The notes under the pieces were generated by a model, which saw only the letters and a program-made list of their open reading frames with translations, was not told the origin of the DNA and ran no database searches. 64,000 nucleotides of DNA from Methanolobus bombayensis (GTDB lineage Archaea > Halobacteriota > Methanosarcinia > Methanosarcinales > Methanosarcinaceae): the NCBI RefSeq assembly GCF_017873415.1, contig NZ_JAGGKD010000006.1, forward strand, positions 1 through 64,000, in the 5' to 3' direction. Position numbers and translations under genes: made by a program. The stretch's first letter is position 1; the number at the start of each line of letters is the position of its first letter. Of this stretch, positions 56,541-63,554 are shown one piece after another.

Positions 56541-57335
56541 TTATTTTTTTCTCTTTTTACTGAGTTCAATATCAACTTTGACCTTCCTGATAGCAAGGTC
56601 TGTAGCAAGCCCTCTCAGCATCCACCTTAGTGCTGAAGCTTGCTGACTTGAATTTTTGGGGAATTCCTTTCTAACAACAGACGAAGCTTTTGGACCTGCT
56701 TCCTTCTGTAAAGTCTCAAGTTTTTTTCTTGAAAATGAGTCAAATCCTCCAACCTTAAGTTGTGCAAAGGACTTAAAACCAGGTGATGGAGAAGTATTAA
56801 GTTCATTTATCTTAAGTCTTAGTTTTGAAGAAACAGAAGATGAGTTCACATCCGCAACGAACTTTCTATTCTCAGGTTTTACAGAACTTCCTTTTGAAGT
56901 CTTTGAATCAGATTTTGATAGTTTGCTGCGTCTGGATTCAGGCAACGCAAGTCTGTCAGCAATACTGTTCTGCTCCCTGGGAACCCATGTGAATTTGACC
57001 TTCAGATTATGTTTTTTGATTATGGAATCAGTTTCTTCTTTTATCTTTGCAAGGTTCTGGTTATTTACTTTCCATTTTCCTGACATCTGGCTAATTACAA
57101 GTTTGCTGTCACCGCAGACCTGGAGAGGACCTTTTCCTCCGAGTTTGAGGTAATTCTTTATACCTTCCTTAAGGGCTGTATACTCGGCAACGTTATTAGT
57201 ATTGGATTTTGAAGGTTTCTTTTCTTTGCTTCCTTCAGTTGGTTTTTTTCCACTGCTCCAGTTGATTATCCATCCAAATCCCATTATTCCTCCGGGATTC
57301 GGGTCGCATGAGCCGTCAAAGTTCAGTGTATCCAT
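56541..57335 (-). CDS. Ribonuclease HI with a long basic C-terminal extension
   Basis: RNase HI-type domain in the first 140 residues: MDTLNFDGSCDPNPGG (first aspartate), NTNNVAEYTALKEG (glutamate), QVCGDSKLVISQM (aspartate) and NSIADRLAL (last aspartate). It cleaves RNA in RNA-DNA hybrids. A lysine- and serine-rich linker follows and then about 90 residues (KLRLKINELN onward, ending ELSKKRKK) that I do not recognise. Start at 57335; the longer frame to 57413 overlaps the upstream gene. Confidence 0.85.
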   Translation of the reverse strand: MDTLNFDGSCDPNPGGIMGFGWIINWSSGKKPTEGSKEKKPSKSNTNNVAEYTALKEGIKNYLKLGGKGPLQVCGDSKLVISQMSGKWKVNNQNLAKIKEETDSIIKKHNLKVKFTWVPREQNSIADRLALPESRRSKLSKSDSKTSKGSSVKPENRKFVADVNSSSVSSKLRLKINELNTSPSPGFKSFAQLKVGGFDSFSRKKLETLQKEAGPKASSVVRKEFPKNSSQQASALRWMLRGLATDLAIRKVKVDIELSKKRKK

Positions 57336-57405
57336 ATTTAGTTTCCAAGGTTGGTCATTGCTTTTGTATCTGCCGGGATATAATAAAAGAGAAAAAGAAA
57401 AAGAA

Positions 57406-58035
57406 TCATGCACCTTTTGCGGATTTTTTAAAACTCAGTGCATCCTTCGGGCAGACATCAATGCATCTTCCGCATTTTATACAATCAGGATTGTGTGTTA
57501 TTTCCACGATATTCAGGTGCATTGGACATACCTTTTCACATTTATGACACTTTATGCACTTATCAATATCAACCTGGAGTGGATATTTGTTTACTCCCAC
57601 TATGCTTTGCAGTGTACCCATCGGGCAGAAAGTACACCATGTTCTTGGAGCAATTGTAATTCCCAGAATAACTGCAATTGAAGATGTGGTCAGACACATT
57701 ATTACAAGCACCATGCCTATCTGATTCACAAGTCCATGGGTATTCATGAATCTGTAGCCCATAAAGACTATCATGAATATGAAAAGAGGAACTCTTATCC
57801 AATAGCTTTTGAGAAACTTGGGTATCTTTCTTTTTTCTGAGACTTTGCCTACCCAGAAATCCATGAAGCTTCCCCTGGGACAGAGATTCCCACAGAACCA
57901 GCGGCCTCGGAATGGAGCTATTAAAAATATGGCACCAAAAACCAGCAGCATGAAGTAACCAAGCAGAGGGAACCATAATCCTGCTATTGAAACGATGATA
58001 ACAAGTGGTCCCATATAGGGAGTTATCTTTAACAT
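57406..58035 (-). CDS. Membrane-bound 4Fe-4S ferredoxin protein (NapH/CcoG-like)
   Basis: A 209-residue protein with about four membrane helices and CxxxCP-type motifs near the membrane (FCGNLCPRGSF and WCTFCPMGTL). Two C-terminal 4Fe-4S motifs follow (CIKCHKCEKVCPMH and CIKCGRCIDVCPKD). Such proteins carry electrons across or along the membrane; the partner is unknown. It overlaps nothing upstream, and the RNase HI gene follows on the same strand. Confidence 0.87.
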   Translation of the reverse strand: MLKITPYMGPLVIIVSIAGLWFPLLGYFMLLVFGAIFLIAPFRGRWFCGNLCPRGSFMDFWVGKVSEKRKIPKFLKSYWIRVPLFIFMIVFMGYRFMNTHGLVNQIGMVLVIMCLTTSSIAVILGITIAPRTWCTFCPMGTLQSIVGVNKYPLQVDIDKCIKCHKCEKVCPMHLNIVEITHNPDCIKCGRCIDVCPKDALSFKKSAKGA

Positions 58036-58295: not shown

Positions 58296-59252
58296 TCAGT
58301 CTTCATACACTCCTGCAAACTCCACGAAATCATCAAAATCAACATTGCCGTCATCATCAAAATCGAATATTGGAGAATAGTTCCAATCACTTGATGTTGA
58401 TTCATATACTTCGGCAAATTCTACAAAATCATCAAAATCAACATCCATATCGCCGTCAAAATCACCTTTCATGTTTTCGGAAGCTTCCACTTCCAGCGAC
58501 CAGCTTACAGAATCATTTTCACTGGAACCGGTGACAGTTACTTCAATATCGTGCTCACCTGCTGAAGCTGATTTCATACTATAGTAGGATCTGGTCACAT
58601 CTTCTTCTGTTTTGACAATACTTCCATCAACTGACCAGGTGGCATCACATACATCATTTGTTCGTATGGTGAAAAACATATCAGCACTATCAGAAACGAT
58701 ATTTCTTGATGCAGGTTCAAATGAGCTTATTGAAAGTGTAATTTCCGGAACCACTGCATCAGGATTCCAGCCAAAATCCTGTGTGTACATAGCAGTATTT
58801 GAGTATGAAGAATATTCACCTACCCATATACCGATGCCTATCTCATTGTAGCTGGAGCTCAGTATGTTTGCCCTGTGACCGGGTGAATTCATGAGATTCT
58901 CGTGAGCCTTCACAACATCAGGAGGATAGTTCATGGCAATGTTCTCTCCAATGCGGTAGATGACATAACCTGAATCCCTTATCCTTTCCGAAAAAAGTGT
59001 GCCATCAAAAGAATCATGTGAAAAATAGTCGTTTTCGATCATATCTCTACTGTGTTCCCTTGCAACCTGAGTAAGTATAGGATTGATATTTAATGGTTCA
59101 AGACCAAGGTCGTTCCTTTCTTCATTTATAAGATCAAGCATCTGCTGTTCCTGTTCTGCATACGTATCTGCTGCGGATACGATAGATGTAAAACAGGACA
59201 GAATTAGGATAAATACAAAGAAATATCCTGAAAAATAATACGTTTTATTCAT
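58296..59252 (-). CDS. Secreted CAP-domain protein with C-terminal dockerin-like EF-hand repeats
   Basis: A 318-residue exported protein. A signal peptide (YFFVFILILSCFTSIVSAA) leads to a CAP/SCP domain (about 35-165) with MLDLINEERNDLGLEPL, AREHSRDMIENDYFSH, IGENIAM and NSPGHRANILS. A beta-sandwich-like middle part (LSISSFEPASRNIV onward) follows. Two repeats with calcium-loop motifs end the protein (GDFDGDMDVDFDDFVEFAEVY and then DFDDDGNVDFDDFVEFAGVY), resembling a type I dockerin. It probably binds a cohesin-type surface partner or calcium at the cell surface. Confidence 0.88.
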   Translation of the reverse strand: MNKTYYFSGYFFVFILILSCFTSIVSAADTYAEQEQQMLDLINEERNDLGLEPLNINPILTQVAREHSRDMIENDYFSHDSFDGTLFSERIRDSGYVIYRIGENIAMNYPPDVVKAHENLMNSPGHRANILSSSYNEIGIGIWVGEYSSYSNTAMYTQDFGWNPDAVVPEITLSISSFEPASRNIVSDSADMFFTIRTNDVCDATWSVDGSIVKTEEDVTRSYYSMKSASAGEHDIEVTVTGSSENDSVSWSLEVEASENMKGDFDGDMDVDFDDFVEFAEVYESTSSDWNYSPIFDFDDDGNVDFDDFVEFAGVYED

Positions 59253-59498: not shown

Positions 59499-61403
59499 GT
59501 GGAAGATGACAGAATATCGTATCATGATTCAGTGCGTACAGTATATAAAAGGATAAAAGAAGACGGTATGACCAACATATGGGACCGCTATGAAGCTCAG
59601 GGAATGGGTAGTAGTCCGGACAGGAGATGTACCTTCTGCCAGGGAGGCATGCGTTGCGACCTTTGTTCCAATGGTCCCTGCCGTGGAGACGCATCAAAGG
59701 ATAAAAGGGGAGTTTGCGGCATAACTGCCGATGGAATGGCCATGAGAATGATGCTTTTACGCAACGTCATGGGCGCTTCGACCTACCAGTATCACACCAA
59801 CCAGACAATAAAGACACTTCGAGCAACAGCAAAAGGCGAGACTCCTTTTAAGATAACCGAAGAGGAAAAACTTAGAAATTTCGCCGGAAGACTGGGGATA
59901 GATTCCAGTGGAAATATAGGAGATGTTGCCCTGAAACTCTGTGACTTTGTAGAAGAAGATTTTACAAGGGAATACGGACAGCCAAGTAAGATCGTGGAAA
60001 TGCTTGCTCCAGAGGAAAGACAGGTTTTATGGAAGGAGACAGGAATCTTTCCAGGAGGAATCCAGACAGAGATCCTCAGGTCAACAAGTTCATCCCTTAC
60101 AAACGTAGATGGAGATTACGTCAGTCTCGCACTGAAAGCCATGAAACTCGGAGTGGCAATGGCTTACCAGAGCCAGATAGTCAATGAGTACTGCCAAGAC
60201 ATCATATTCGGATTACCCAAACCTCACAACATGAGAGTGGACCTTGGAGTCCTTGACCCTGATTACGTGAATATTCTGCCAAACGGACATGAGCCTTTCC
60301 TGGGATTTGCTATGGTCCAGCTTGCAAGAAAAGCGGAGTGGCAGGATAAGGCCAAGAAAGTTGGAGCCAAAGGTCTCAGAATTATTGCCAATATTGAGAC
60401 CGGACAGGAAATGATCCAGCGCTGGGAGATGGATGATGCTTTCTATGGCTTCACCGGTAACTGGATCATGCAGGAGGCTGTTCTTGCAAGCGGTTGTGTT
60501 GATGTTTTTGTTGCGGACATGAATTGTTCTATGCCGATAGACCCGATGTACGCTGAAAAATATAAATTCAAACTTATCCCTGTAAGCGATCTTGTTTCAT
60601 TTGAAGGAGTCAGCGAACGTCTTGAATATATTCCTGAAAAAGCCAGTGAACAGGCGGCAAAACTACTCCAGATGGGTATTGATAATTTCAAAGAGCGTAG
60701 TTCAAGTGTTAAACCAGTTACCGGGCTGCCGGTGAATGAGGCTGTTGTGGGGTTCTCAACTGAGAGTATACTGGAGGCTCTTGGAGGAAAACTTGATCCG
60801 CTTCTGGATGCCATCAAAGACGGAACCCTGCGTGGAGTAGCGGGACTTGTTTCCTGTACAACCTTAAGAGATACAGGTCAGGATAGTCACAGTATTGCCG
60901 TTGCAAAAGAACTTATTAAAAATGATATACTGGTGCTTTCCATGGGATGTGGAAACGCAGCCATGCAGGTTGGAGGACTCTGCAGTCCCGAAGCAAAAGA
61001 ACTTGCAGGACCCGGACTTAAGGCAATCTGTGAAGCACTTGGAATTCCTCCGGTACTCAGTTACGGAACCTGTACCGATACGGGCAGGATCGCTGATCTG
61101 ATAGCTGCTGTGTCTGCAGCTCTGGGTGATGTCGCGGTACCCGATCTGCCAGTTGTTGCCACTGCACCTGAGTATATGGAACAGAAAGCAACGATAGATG
61201 CAGTATTTGCACTGGCATTCGGACTTTATACACACGTAAATCCTGTTCCAACAGTAACAGGAGCACCGAATCTTGTAAAGCTCCTCACCGAGGACTGTAA
61301 AGATGTCACAGGCGGTGTGATGAATGTGGAAACAGATGCTGTAAAAGCAGTGGAACTCATGCTTGAACACATTGAGAACAACCGTAAGAAGCTTGGAATC
61401 TAA
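59499..61403 (+). CDS. CooS-type carbon monoxide dehydrogenase paralogue lacking one C-cluster cysteine
   Basis: Monofunctional Ni-CODH-like protein of 634 residues. N-terminal cysteines for the B and D clusters are C44, C47, C53, C56, C61 and C73 (RCTFCQGGMRCDLCSNGPC). Active-site residues by comparison with bacterial CODH II are His264 (NGHEPF), Cys343 (DMNCSMP), Cys453 (LVSCTTL), Cys484 (MGCGNA), Cys525 (GTCTDT) and Lys563 (MEQKA). The position equal to Cys295 is Glu300 (NIETGQE), so one ligand of the Ni-Fe cluster is absent. It may therefore not be a normal CO oxidiser. No cooF or cooC is adjacent. The start is GTG at 59499. A CopB ATPase follows after 24 bases. Confidence 0.85.
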   Translation: MEDDRISYHDSVRTVYKRIKEDGMTNIWDRYEAQGMGSSPDRRCTFCQGGMRCDLCSNGPCRGDASKDKRGVCGITADGMAMRMMLLRNVMGASTYQYHTNQTIKTLRATAKGETPFKITEEEKLRNFAGRLGIDSSGNIGDVALKLCDFVEEDFTREYGQPSKIVEMLAPEERQVLWKETGIFPGGIQTEILRSTSSSLTNVDGDYVSLALKAMKLGVAMAYQSQIVNEYCQDIIFGLPKPHNMRVDLGVLDPDYVNILPNGHEPFLGFAMVQLARKAEWQDKAKKVGAKGLRIIANIETGQEMIQRWEMDDAFYGFTGNWIMQEAVLASGCVDVFVADMNCSMPIDPMYAEKYKFKLIPVSDLVSFEGVSERLEYIPEKASEQAAKLLQMGIDNFKERSSSVKPVTGLPVNEAVVGFSTESILEALGGKLDPLLDAIKDGTLRGVAGLVSCTTLRDTGQDSHSIAVAKELIKNDILVLSMGCGNAAMQVGGLCSPEAKELAGPGLKAICEALGIPPVLSYGTCTDTGRIADLIAAVSAALGDVAVPDLPVVATAPEYMEQKATIDAVFALAFGLYTHVNPVPTVTGAPNLVKLLTEDCKDVTGGVMNVETDAVKAVELMLEHIENNRKKLGI

Positions 61404-61427: not shown

Positions 61428-63554
61428 ATGGACCATGATGATTCTGTCATGAAAAAGGAAAAGGGAGCGCATGAACATGAAAGTCATGCTTCACATAACA
61501 AACATGGCAAGCATTCAGGACATGGAGAACACGAATCCCATCAGGGACATGAAGGTCACCAGGGTCATGGAGAACACTCTAACCACCATGCAATGATGGT
61601 GCAGGATTTCAGGAAAAGGTTCTGGATATCAATTGTCCTGACGATACCAATACTTCTCCTGTCTCCTATCATACAGGATTTCTTTGACTCAAATCTTGGA
61701 ATTATCATTCCATCTTTTTCCGGTGATACATACCTGTTGTTTGCGTTCTCAACTGTGGTCTTTTTCTATGGAGGCTGGCCTTTCCTTAAAGGTATAAAGG
61801 ATGAACTTACATCCAAAAATCCCGGGATGATGACACTTATTGCGGTTGCCATCACCGTTGCATACGGATACAGCAGTCTTGTTGTTTTCGGACTTGAAGG
61901 AAAGCTCTTTTTCTGGGAACTTGCAACCCTGATCGATATCATGCTCCTTGGTCACTGGATGGAAATGAAATCTGTCATGGGAGCTTCCATGGCCCTTCAG
62001 GAACTGGTTAAGCTCATGCCATCTGATGCTCATCTCATTAAATCCGACGGGAAAACAGATGATGTTCCAGTTGATGAACTTAAAATGGAAGATAAGGTTC
62101 TCGTCAAACCCGGAGAAAAGATACCTGTTGACGGTGTTGTGGTTGACGGACAGAGTTCTGTAAATGAGGCAATGCTTACAGGTGAATCAAATCCGGTTCC
62201 AATGGAAAAAGGGGACGAGGTTATTGCCGGTGCTATTAACGGAGAAGGTTCGCTGACCATTGAAGTCCGCAAAACCGGGAAAGATTCATTCCTGTCACAA
62301 ATGCTTGATCTCGTTTCTCAGGCACAGCAAAGCAAATCAAAAACCCAGAACCTTGCTGACAGAGCTGCTCTGTACCTTACGATAATTGCTCTGACAGCAG
62401 GTACACTCACTTTTTTTGCGTGGCTCAGACTGGCAAGCACCGATCTTGCATTTTCACTTGAAAGAGCTGTAACAGTTATGGTAATTACGTGTCCTCATGC
62501 CCTTGGACTTGCAATTCCTCTTGTAGTTGCCGTTTCCTCTGCAATTGGTGCACGTAACGGCCTGCTTATCAGGAACAGAGGACCATTTGAGAGAGCCAGA
62601 AATATTGATGCGATTGTTTTTGACAAGACAGGAACTCTCACTAAAGGAGAATTCGGAGTCAGTGACGTTGTTGTTTTTGATGAGAACATGCAAAAAGAGG
62701 AAATACTCAGTTATGCAGCATCCATTGAATCTGATTCCGAGCACCCGATAGCACAGGGAATCCTTAACTCTGCCGAACCTGAATATAAAGTGGAGAATTT
62801 CAGTGCTATTTCCGGAAAAGGAGCACAAGGTACTGTTAATGGTAAGGATGTGAAGGTTGTGAGTCCTGCATATCTGAGAGAAGAAGGAATCAGTTATCCA
62901 GAGGAAAAACTGGAGGAGATAAACAGTCAGGGAAAGACCACGGTTTTTGTTCTTATTGATGAAAATTCAGTGGGAGCTATTGCACTGGAAGACGTGGTCA
63001 GGCCCGAATCAAAGGAATCTGTAGGCAAACTGAAAGAAATGGGTATCAAATGTTTCATGCTTACAGGTGACCAGAAGCAGGTGGCTGAAAGAGTTGCGGA
63101 CCAGATCGGCCTTGATGAATACTTTGCAGGAGTTCTGCCTGATGAAAAAGCTTCCAGAATAAAGGAAGTTCAGGAAAGAGGACTAACTGTTGCGATGGTG
63201 GGAGATGGTATCAATGATGCGCCTGCCCTTGCACAGGCTGATGTGGGTATAGCCATCGGAGCCGGTACTGATGTTGCAGTGGAAACTGCGGACATTGTAC
63301 TTGTAAAAAGTAACCCTCTTGATGTACTGGCGATCATGAAACTCTCAAAAGCAACATACAGTAAAATGAAACAGAACCTTTTCTGGGCAACAGGTTACAA
63401 TGCCCTGGCGATTCCACTTGCAGCAGGGGTCTTATATCAGCAGGGAATTCTACTGTCACCAGCAGCAGGAGCGGTACTGATGTCAATGAGCACAATTATT
63501 GTTGCTGTAAATGCAAGACTTCTGTCCATAGACGGGGAACATAAGTCTGAATAA
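61428..63554 (+). CDS. copB: Copper-exporting P1B-type ATPase, CPH (CopB) subtype
   Basis: Heavy-metal P-type ATPase of 708 residues. The first 45 residues are rich in histidine (HEHESHASHNKHGKHSGHG and more), a metal-binding tail. The membrane motif is CPH (TVMVITCPHALGLAI, near 355-357), which marks the CopB/P1B-3 class that handles Cu2+ or Cu+. The phosphorylation site DKTGTLTKGEFG (near 399), TGES, and GDGINDAPALAQADVGIAIG are intact. It starts after GGTGA. It lies 24 bases after the CODH-like gene, so a common transcript is likely. Confidence 0.9.
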   Translation: MDHDDSVMKKEKGAHEHESHASHNKHGKHSGHGEHESHQGHEGHQGHGEHSNHHAMMVQDFRKRFWISIVLTIPILLLSPIIQDFFDSNLGIIIPSFSGDTYLLFAFSTVVFFYGGWPFLKGIKDELTSKNPGMMTLIAVAITVAYGYSSLVVFGLEGKLFFWELATLIDIMLLGHWMEMKSVMGASMALQELVKLMPSDAHLIKSDGKTDDVPVDELKMEDKVLVKPGEKIPVDGVVVDGQSSVNEAMLTGESNPVPMEKGDEVIAGAINGEGSLTIEVRKTGKDSFLSQMLDLVSQAQQSKSKTQNLADRAALYLTIIALTAGTLTFFAWLRLASTDLAFSLERAVTVMVITCPHALGLAIPLVVAVSSAIGARNGLLIRNRGPFERARNIDAIVFDKTGTLTKGEFGVSDVVVFDENMQKEEILSYAASIESDSEHPIAQGILNSAEPEYKVENFSAISGKGAQGTVNGKDVKVVSPAYLREEGISYPEEKLEEINSQGKTTVFVLIDENSVGAIALEDVVRPESKESVGKLKEMGIKCFMLTGDQKQVAERVADQIGLDEYFAGVLPDEKASRIKEVQERGLTVAMVGDGINDAPALAQADVGIAIGAGTDVAVETADIVLVKSNPLDVLAIMKLSKATYSKMKQNLFWATGYNALAIPLAAGVLYQQGILLSPAAGAVLMSMSTIIVAVNARLLSIDGEHKSE

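Follow-up and report, generated by a model that had tools for sequence, protein, structure and literature searches.

The 64,000-nucleotide window of Methanolobus bombayensis analyzed here contains a gene whose product matches the model for anaerobic CO dehydrogenase (CODH) and has a glutamate where CODH-II has the cluster ligand Cys295. Does such a protein act on CO, and if not, what might it do? The type of protein is already known; what is new is a conserved, multiphylum clade of it with partner gene families in common with hcp. A search of the open literature, with subscription papers mostly outside its range, returned no report of CooS-V-type genes having partner context in common with hcp. 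For a protein type whose structure is solved, the partners shared with hcp point to a concrete, testable role and a likely electron donor.

Cluster ligands and fold of the window protein

The ORF list and translation show a real gene, a 634-amino-acid frame with a GTG start at positions 59499 to 61403 (+). The product matches NCBIfam TIGR01702, the anaerobic CODH catalytic subunit, at 746 bits (E = 2.6e-224; cutoff, 478 bits), and also Pfam Prismane. A first-pass annotation, made from the sequence alone, held that Glu300 replaces the Cys295 ligand. The GAG codon indeed lies at 60396 to 60398 (+), within IETGQE, and no alternative cysteine aligns there. A sequencing slip is not the cause, as Glu occupies the same place in all of the 80 best of 414 relatives. 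The other active-site residues named in that annotation are in place, all on the plus strand and numbered here with their CooS-V counterparts: the hybrid-cluster ligand His264 (His259; 60288 to 60290), Cys343 in the pair Asn342-Cys343 (Asn337-Cys338; 60522 to 60527), Cys453 (Cys449; 60855 to 60857), Cys484 (Cys480; 60948 to 60950), Cys525 (Cys521; 61071 to 61073), described as the persulfide-forming cysteine (PMC9311411), and Lys563. We add to these Asn342, Tyr96, and Glu561, which stands two residues before Lys563 (61179 to 61187 for both) and aligns with Glu556 of CooS-V, the reported counterpart of HCP Glu494 (PMC9311411, PMC6344411). Tyr96, matched by eye to the acid-base His of Ni-CODHs, is invariant in 19/19 rows.

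Cys44 and Cys47 (59628 to 59639, +) align with the D-cluster cysteines, which in CooS-V hold a subunit-bridging 2Fe-2S cluster, and Cys53, Cys56, Cys61, and Cys73 (59655 to 59717, +) form the 4Fe-4S B-cluster motif. The spacing of C44, C47, and Arg52-C53 is as first described, but it stands out only when CODH-II is the reference: the motif is that of the known type III D-cluster, defined by a second Cys (Gly41Cys in CooS-V) and described for D-1 proteins and the Desulfovibrio vulgaris CODH (PMC6344411, PMC9311411).

CooS-V of Carboxydothermus hydrogenoformans, which the first-pass annotation had mentioned, is the nearest solved protein (7b7q, 689 bits; runner-up, 414 bits) and has the same Glu, there numbered Glu295, reading IESGQE at this motif. 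The two proteins are 51% identical over 624 alignment columns and agree at 19/19 cluster and active-site positions, where the canonical CODHs in the set differ; the pattern is held by 139 rows, these two included, some rows being one gene fetched twice. An AlphaFold model (pLDDT 85, pTM 0.89; weak, with pLDDT below 50, at residues 46 to 66 in the B/D-cluster region) superposes most closely on 7b9a and 7b7q, both CooS-V structures (TM 0.95, rmsd 1.9 to 2.0).

The window protein therefore belongs, as a methanogen representative, to the CooS-V type already described (structural group D-1) and is not a new kind. Its likeness to CooS-V (7B7Q, 7B9A; Jeoung et al. 2022, PMC9311411) extends to the hybrid-cluster ligands, the Glu, the type III D-cluster, the B-cluster, length, and fold; it differs in that its clade is separate (SH-aLRT 100) and has about five extra residues before Cys44. 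The signature given for D-1 Ni-CODHs (Inoue et al. 2019, PMC6344411), namely, Glu for Cys295, a type III D-cluster, Tyr at the acid-base His, Lys, and Glu two before the Lys, is wholly present, the four other Cys included, with no difference at the defining positions, and archaeal members are already counted in that group (PMC6344411). A Ni,Fe-CODH has five Cys and one His at its C-cluster; here, Glu300 takes the place of one Cys. Hcp belongs to the same superfamily, probably holds the same kind of cluster, and has partner gene families in common with relatives of the window protein, which nevertheless has a CODH fold with a bridging D-cluster and, at 31.8 bits against a cutoff of 360.8 for the HCP model TIGR01703, is not an Hcp.

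For CooS-V, the published account reports a Ni-free Fe/S/O hybrid cluster that opens upon reduction, undetectable CO oxidation and CO2 reduction, NO reduction not above background, and slow hydroxylamine reduction (kcat, 0.13/s); its authors propose a reductase role and describe a C295E variant of CODH-II as Ni deficient and inactive (PMC9311411). By analogy with that structure, we infer that the window protein carries an Fe/S/O cluster and lacks CO activity, and the original guess of a hybrid-cluster-like redox enzyme that would not oxidize CO agrees with these data.

Spread of the glutamate clade

A scan of GTDB contigs gave 420 pattern matches and 414 relatives, of which the best 80 were kept. 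These 80 share 74 to 96% identity with the window protein; their sources are archaea (Methanosarcinaceae, Lokiarchaeota, Helarchaeota, Thermoplasmata, Methanofastidiosum, ANME-1, and Archaeoglobus) and bacteria (Chloroflexota, Actinomycetota, WOR-3, and Desulfobacterota). On a 72-row tree, Glu300 arose in one change, with 55 Glu rows, CooS-V among them, on one side of a branch with SH-aLRT 100 (quick method). The window clade comprises 39 rows with support of 100; CooS-V, on a long branch, groups with presumed Methanoperedens-type rows at only 83. The deep branches of this tree are poorly resolved; this, together with the high identity across phyla, suggests extensive gene transfer, although part of the apparent cross-phylum spread may stem from misbinned contigs.

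Over these many phyla the ligands are strictly conserved and the length is constant. Within the genus the gene is patchy, and one genome (G002) holds a 36-amino-acid remnant of 72% identity. Beside the Glu clade branches a group reading MCTGQE (L049, L051, L057, L059, L064, and L065), in which the cysteine is retained although both GQE and the additional Glu are present; it may be an intermediate state. One ortholog (L027, in G030), otherwise intact, has an in-frame TAG at codon 86, where its sister gene L026 has TTG; elsewhere the changes fall mainly at third codon positions. TAG is read through as pyrrolysine in some methanogens, and the codon reflects either a recent nonsense change or readthrough of this type.

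Partner genes in common with hcp

The commonest neighbor family in the 80 loci is a ferredoxin of about 260 amino acids with two N-terminal Fe-S motifs, for which NCBIfam has no model above cutoff. We call it FrdX-like from its linkage to hcp and the published description, rather than by comparing it with named FrdX sequences. An HMM built from 21 such ferredoxins detected it near the clade gene in 28/80 loci, and it adjoins the gene in distant phyla. It concentrates at gene ranks 1 and 2 (26/294 genes, against 3/480 at ranks 3 to 7; Fisher P of 6e-9, a rough value because rows are not independent, several Lokiarchaea being close kin). Where both flanks reach at least 2.5 kb, clustered ferredoxin occurs in 17 of 53 loci, 0/10 of the Methanosarcinaceae type and 17/43 of the others. 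Genome-wide, 35 of 43 clade genomes hold a match at E of 1e-30 or better; in 23 of all 43, and in 22 of those 35, the ferredoxin falls within the 6-kb flanks of the clade gene. A small cupin was found near the clade gene in 13/80 loci, weak HMM scores included. Close copies are found just upstream of the gene in four loci of Actinomycetota, and two Lokiarchaea have one within 2.4 kb; a second, weaker cupin type is near the gene in nine loci. Both HMMs were built partly from loci later counted; the independent tests are the hcp loci and the genome searches.

Those tests tie both families to hcp. On the Desulfobacterota side, the ferredoxin stands beside 15/30 hcp loci (E < 1e-37, two weak matches excluded). 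Among 97 relatives of one genome (G242), it is single copy in 69 of 70 genomes, and of 71 copies, 35 lie within 3 kb of hcp, 35 near neither hcp nor the clade gene, and one within 3 kb of the clade gene, in a genome without hcp (G344). This fits FrdX as described, a ferredoxin-like protein often found in operons with hcp in deltaproteobacteria and Clostridium (PMC1274295); in Clostridium difficile, NO is reported to induce frdX and hcp strongly, and each knockdown to be NO sensitive (PMC12915319). In 60 Methanosarcinaceae, 29 of 47 cupin copies lie within 100 bp of hcp, 14 near neither gene, and 4 within 150 bp of the clade gene (G027, G036, G049, and G058); the G036 pair runs cupin then CooS on one strand. 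The window's own genome has the cupin directly after one hcp (L148). In Desulfovibrio desulfuricans, the cupin Ddes_1828 and hcp Ddes_1829 belong to one of the two clusters described as most strongly induced by NO (PMC5701242). The hcp linkage of each partner is thus confined to a single group: the ferredoxin was beside 0/31 hcp loci, 30 of them from Methanosarcinaceae and one from elsewhere, and the hcp-type cupin beside 0/30 in Desulfobacterota-side genomes.

Canonical Cys-type CooS loci had neither ferredoxin (0/24) nor cupin (0/24), after removal of 7 clade members from the 31 given, and 11 Desulfobacterota loci of the clade had neither within 1.5 kb (0/11 each). The Glu group on the side of CooS-V and the presumed Methanoperedens rows had ferredoxin in 1/25 loci and cupin in 0/25, which limits the context argument to the window clade. 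The published link of D-1 is instead to a zinc-binding dehydrogenase and HypAB (PMC6344411).

Other upstream neighbors include Rrf2 regulators (4/55 genes) and rubredoxin-reductase-like proteins (8/55). In six Lokiarchaea (L081, L089, L099, L103, L104, and L142), a flavodiiron-like protein, recognized by eye, lies about 2.6 kb upstream of the CooS gene and near a rubredoxin-reductase-like gene, which would fit NO/O2 defense. Second cupin copies in two Methanosarcinaceae (G036:C1, 3036551 and 3037464; G027:C173, 24016 and 24947) are separated by no more than about 1 kb from a short ferredoxin (about 130 to 156 amino acids) akin to the FrdX-like N terminus.

Strict mutual exclusion of the clade gene and hcp was considered and rejected. 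Outside Methanosarcinaceae, true hcp scores above cutoff in 1 of 43 clade genomes, most of them MAGs from lineages that may be hcp free anyway. Coexistence is common elsewhere, with hcp in 7/11 clade genomes and 66/86 others among the relatives of G242 (Fisher P of 0.46) and in 15/18 clade genomes of the 60 Methanosarcinaceae, so replacement is not general. We tentatively suggest, at somewhat less than even chances, that the window clade represents a further hybrid-cluster enzyme of anaerobes, of independent evolutionary origin, that has taken up the operon partners of hcp (FrdX-like ferredoxin and NO-induced cupin), substitutes for Hcp in genomes without hcp, and forms a portable nitrosative-stress module spread widely between archaea and bacteria.

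Proposed role and its alternatives

We regard as probable, with appreciable doubt, that the window protein is a CooS-V-type homodimeric hybrid-cluster reductase, fed by ferredoxin, that serves in nitrosative or oxidative stress defense in parallel to HCP and does not oxidize CO. Electrons would pass from ferredoxin to the bridging 2Fe-2S D-cluster, then to the 4Fe-4S B-cluster, and on to a Ni-free Fe/S/O hybrid cluster presumably held by His264, Glu300, Cys343, Cys453, Cys484, Cys525, and Glu561. Reduction would yield an open 4Fe-3S form, at which a small oxidized molecule could bind and be reduced. NO or some similar nitrogen oxide is the likeliest substrate, with other oxidants as an alternative, and the enzyme may thereby shield the anaerobe alongside true HCP. 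Substrate, donor, and stress role are suggested by gene context. Partner genes in common with hcp support, but do not prove, an HCP-like nitrosative-stress role, and they give indirect backing to the earlier idea of a stress protein; a neighborhood reveals partners or regulons in common but does not show that the reaction is the same. Against the stress reading stand the poor turnover of hydroxylamine by CooS-V and its lack of NO reduction above background (PMC9311411), the many loci, a majority, that have no adjacent partner, and the window itself, where both ferredoxin and cupin are absent from the entire 64 kb and a copper ATPase lies downstream. Another HCP-like enzyme is also not obviously needed, given the two true HCPs that the window's own genome encodes.

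The very slow catalysis by CooS-V (PMC9311411) would also suit a CooS-V-type protein that acts as a redox sensor or a regulator of other CODHs rather than as a stress reductase, as would a cluster that rearranges with redox state. An eLife 2026 survey proposes that clade D serves in redox sensing or regulation and describes 64% of its genes as solitary, with no clear context pattern (PMC13056359). We consider this unlikely, though the most serious competitor, because profile scans with NCBIfam and Pfam models found no signaling or DNA-binding domain in the window protein, the ligands are strictly kept over many phyla, the ferredoxin adjoins the gene in distant phyla, and the window genome has CdhA only and no Cys-type CooS to regulate. 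Very improbable is a working CODH with Glu as an alternative ligand, as the TIGR01702 match would have it annotated: CooS-V lacks Ni and CO activity, as reported, and C295E CODH-II is inactive. A review citing Rother 2007 (PMC4652020; the same study is cited in PMC6344411) states that CooS proteins of Methanosarcina acetivorans help remove CO, which also counts against our preferred reading; several genomes of genus group g7, however, have a second, different CooS match, so the reported effect need not stem from the Glu type. One recent survey left CooS-V-type proteins out of its CODH counts (PMC13240472). The partners in common with hcp are also a warning that many archaeal and bacterial "CODH" annotations do not signify CO metabolism.

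A copper-translocating P-type ATPase (61428 to 63554, +; TIGR01511, E = 2.3e-192) starts 24 bp past the stop codon, and the same order in several Methanosarcinaceae could suggest a joint role in copper or metal homeostasis. We judge this improbable: the ATPase accounts for 7 of 53 downstream genes scanned, all seven in Methanosarcinaceae-type loci (L068 to L080), and other members have different downstream sequence, so that the putative link, real in the window and its close relatives, was rejected as a general feature. That the gene is a nonfunctional CODH copy in decay is hardly credible, despite its patchiness in the genus, the G002 remnant, and the in-frame TAG in G030; two relatives compared differ at 11, 9, and 65 sites in codon positions 1, 2, and 3, mostly the third, and length and ligands are constant over phyla.

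Elsewhere in the window, a secreted CAP-domain protein (58296 to 59252, −) is encoded divergently to the CooS gene. A beta-helix-like protein next to the genome's own hcp (L148, 7956 to 9530) carries the same acidic repeat units as the C terminus of this CAP-domain protein, so the two seem to have a surface or dockerin-like tail in common. A NapH-like polyferredoxin gene overlaps an RNase H-like gene nearby (57406 to 58035 and 56541 to 57413, both −).
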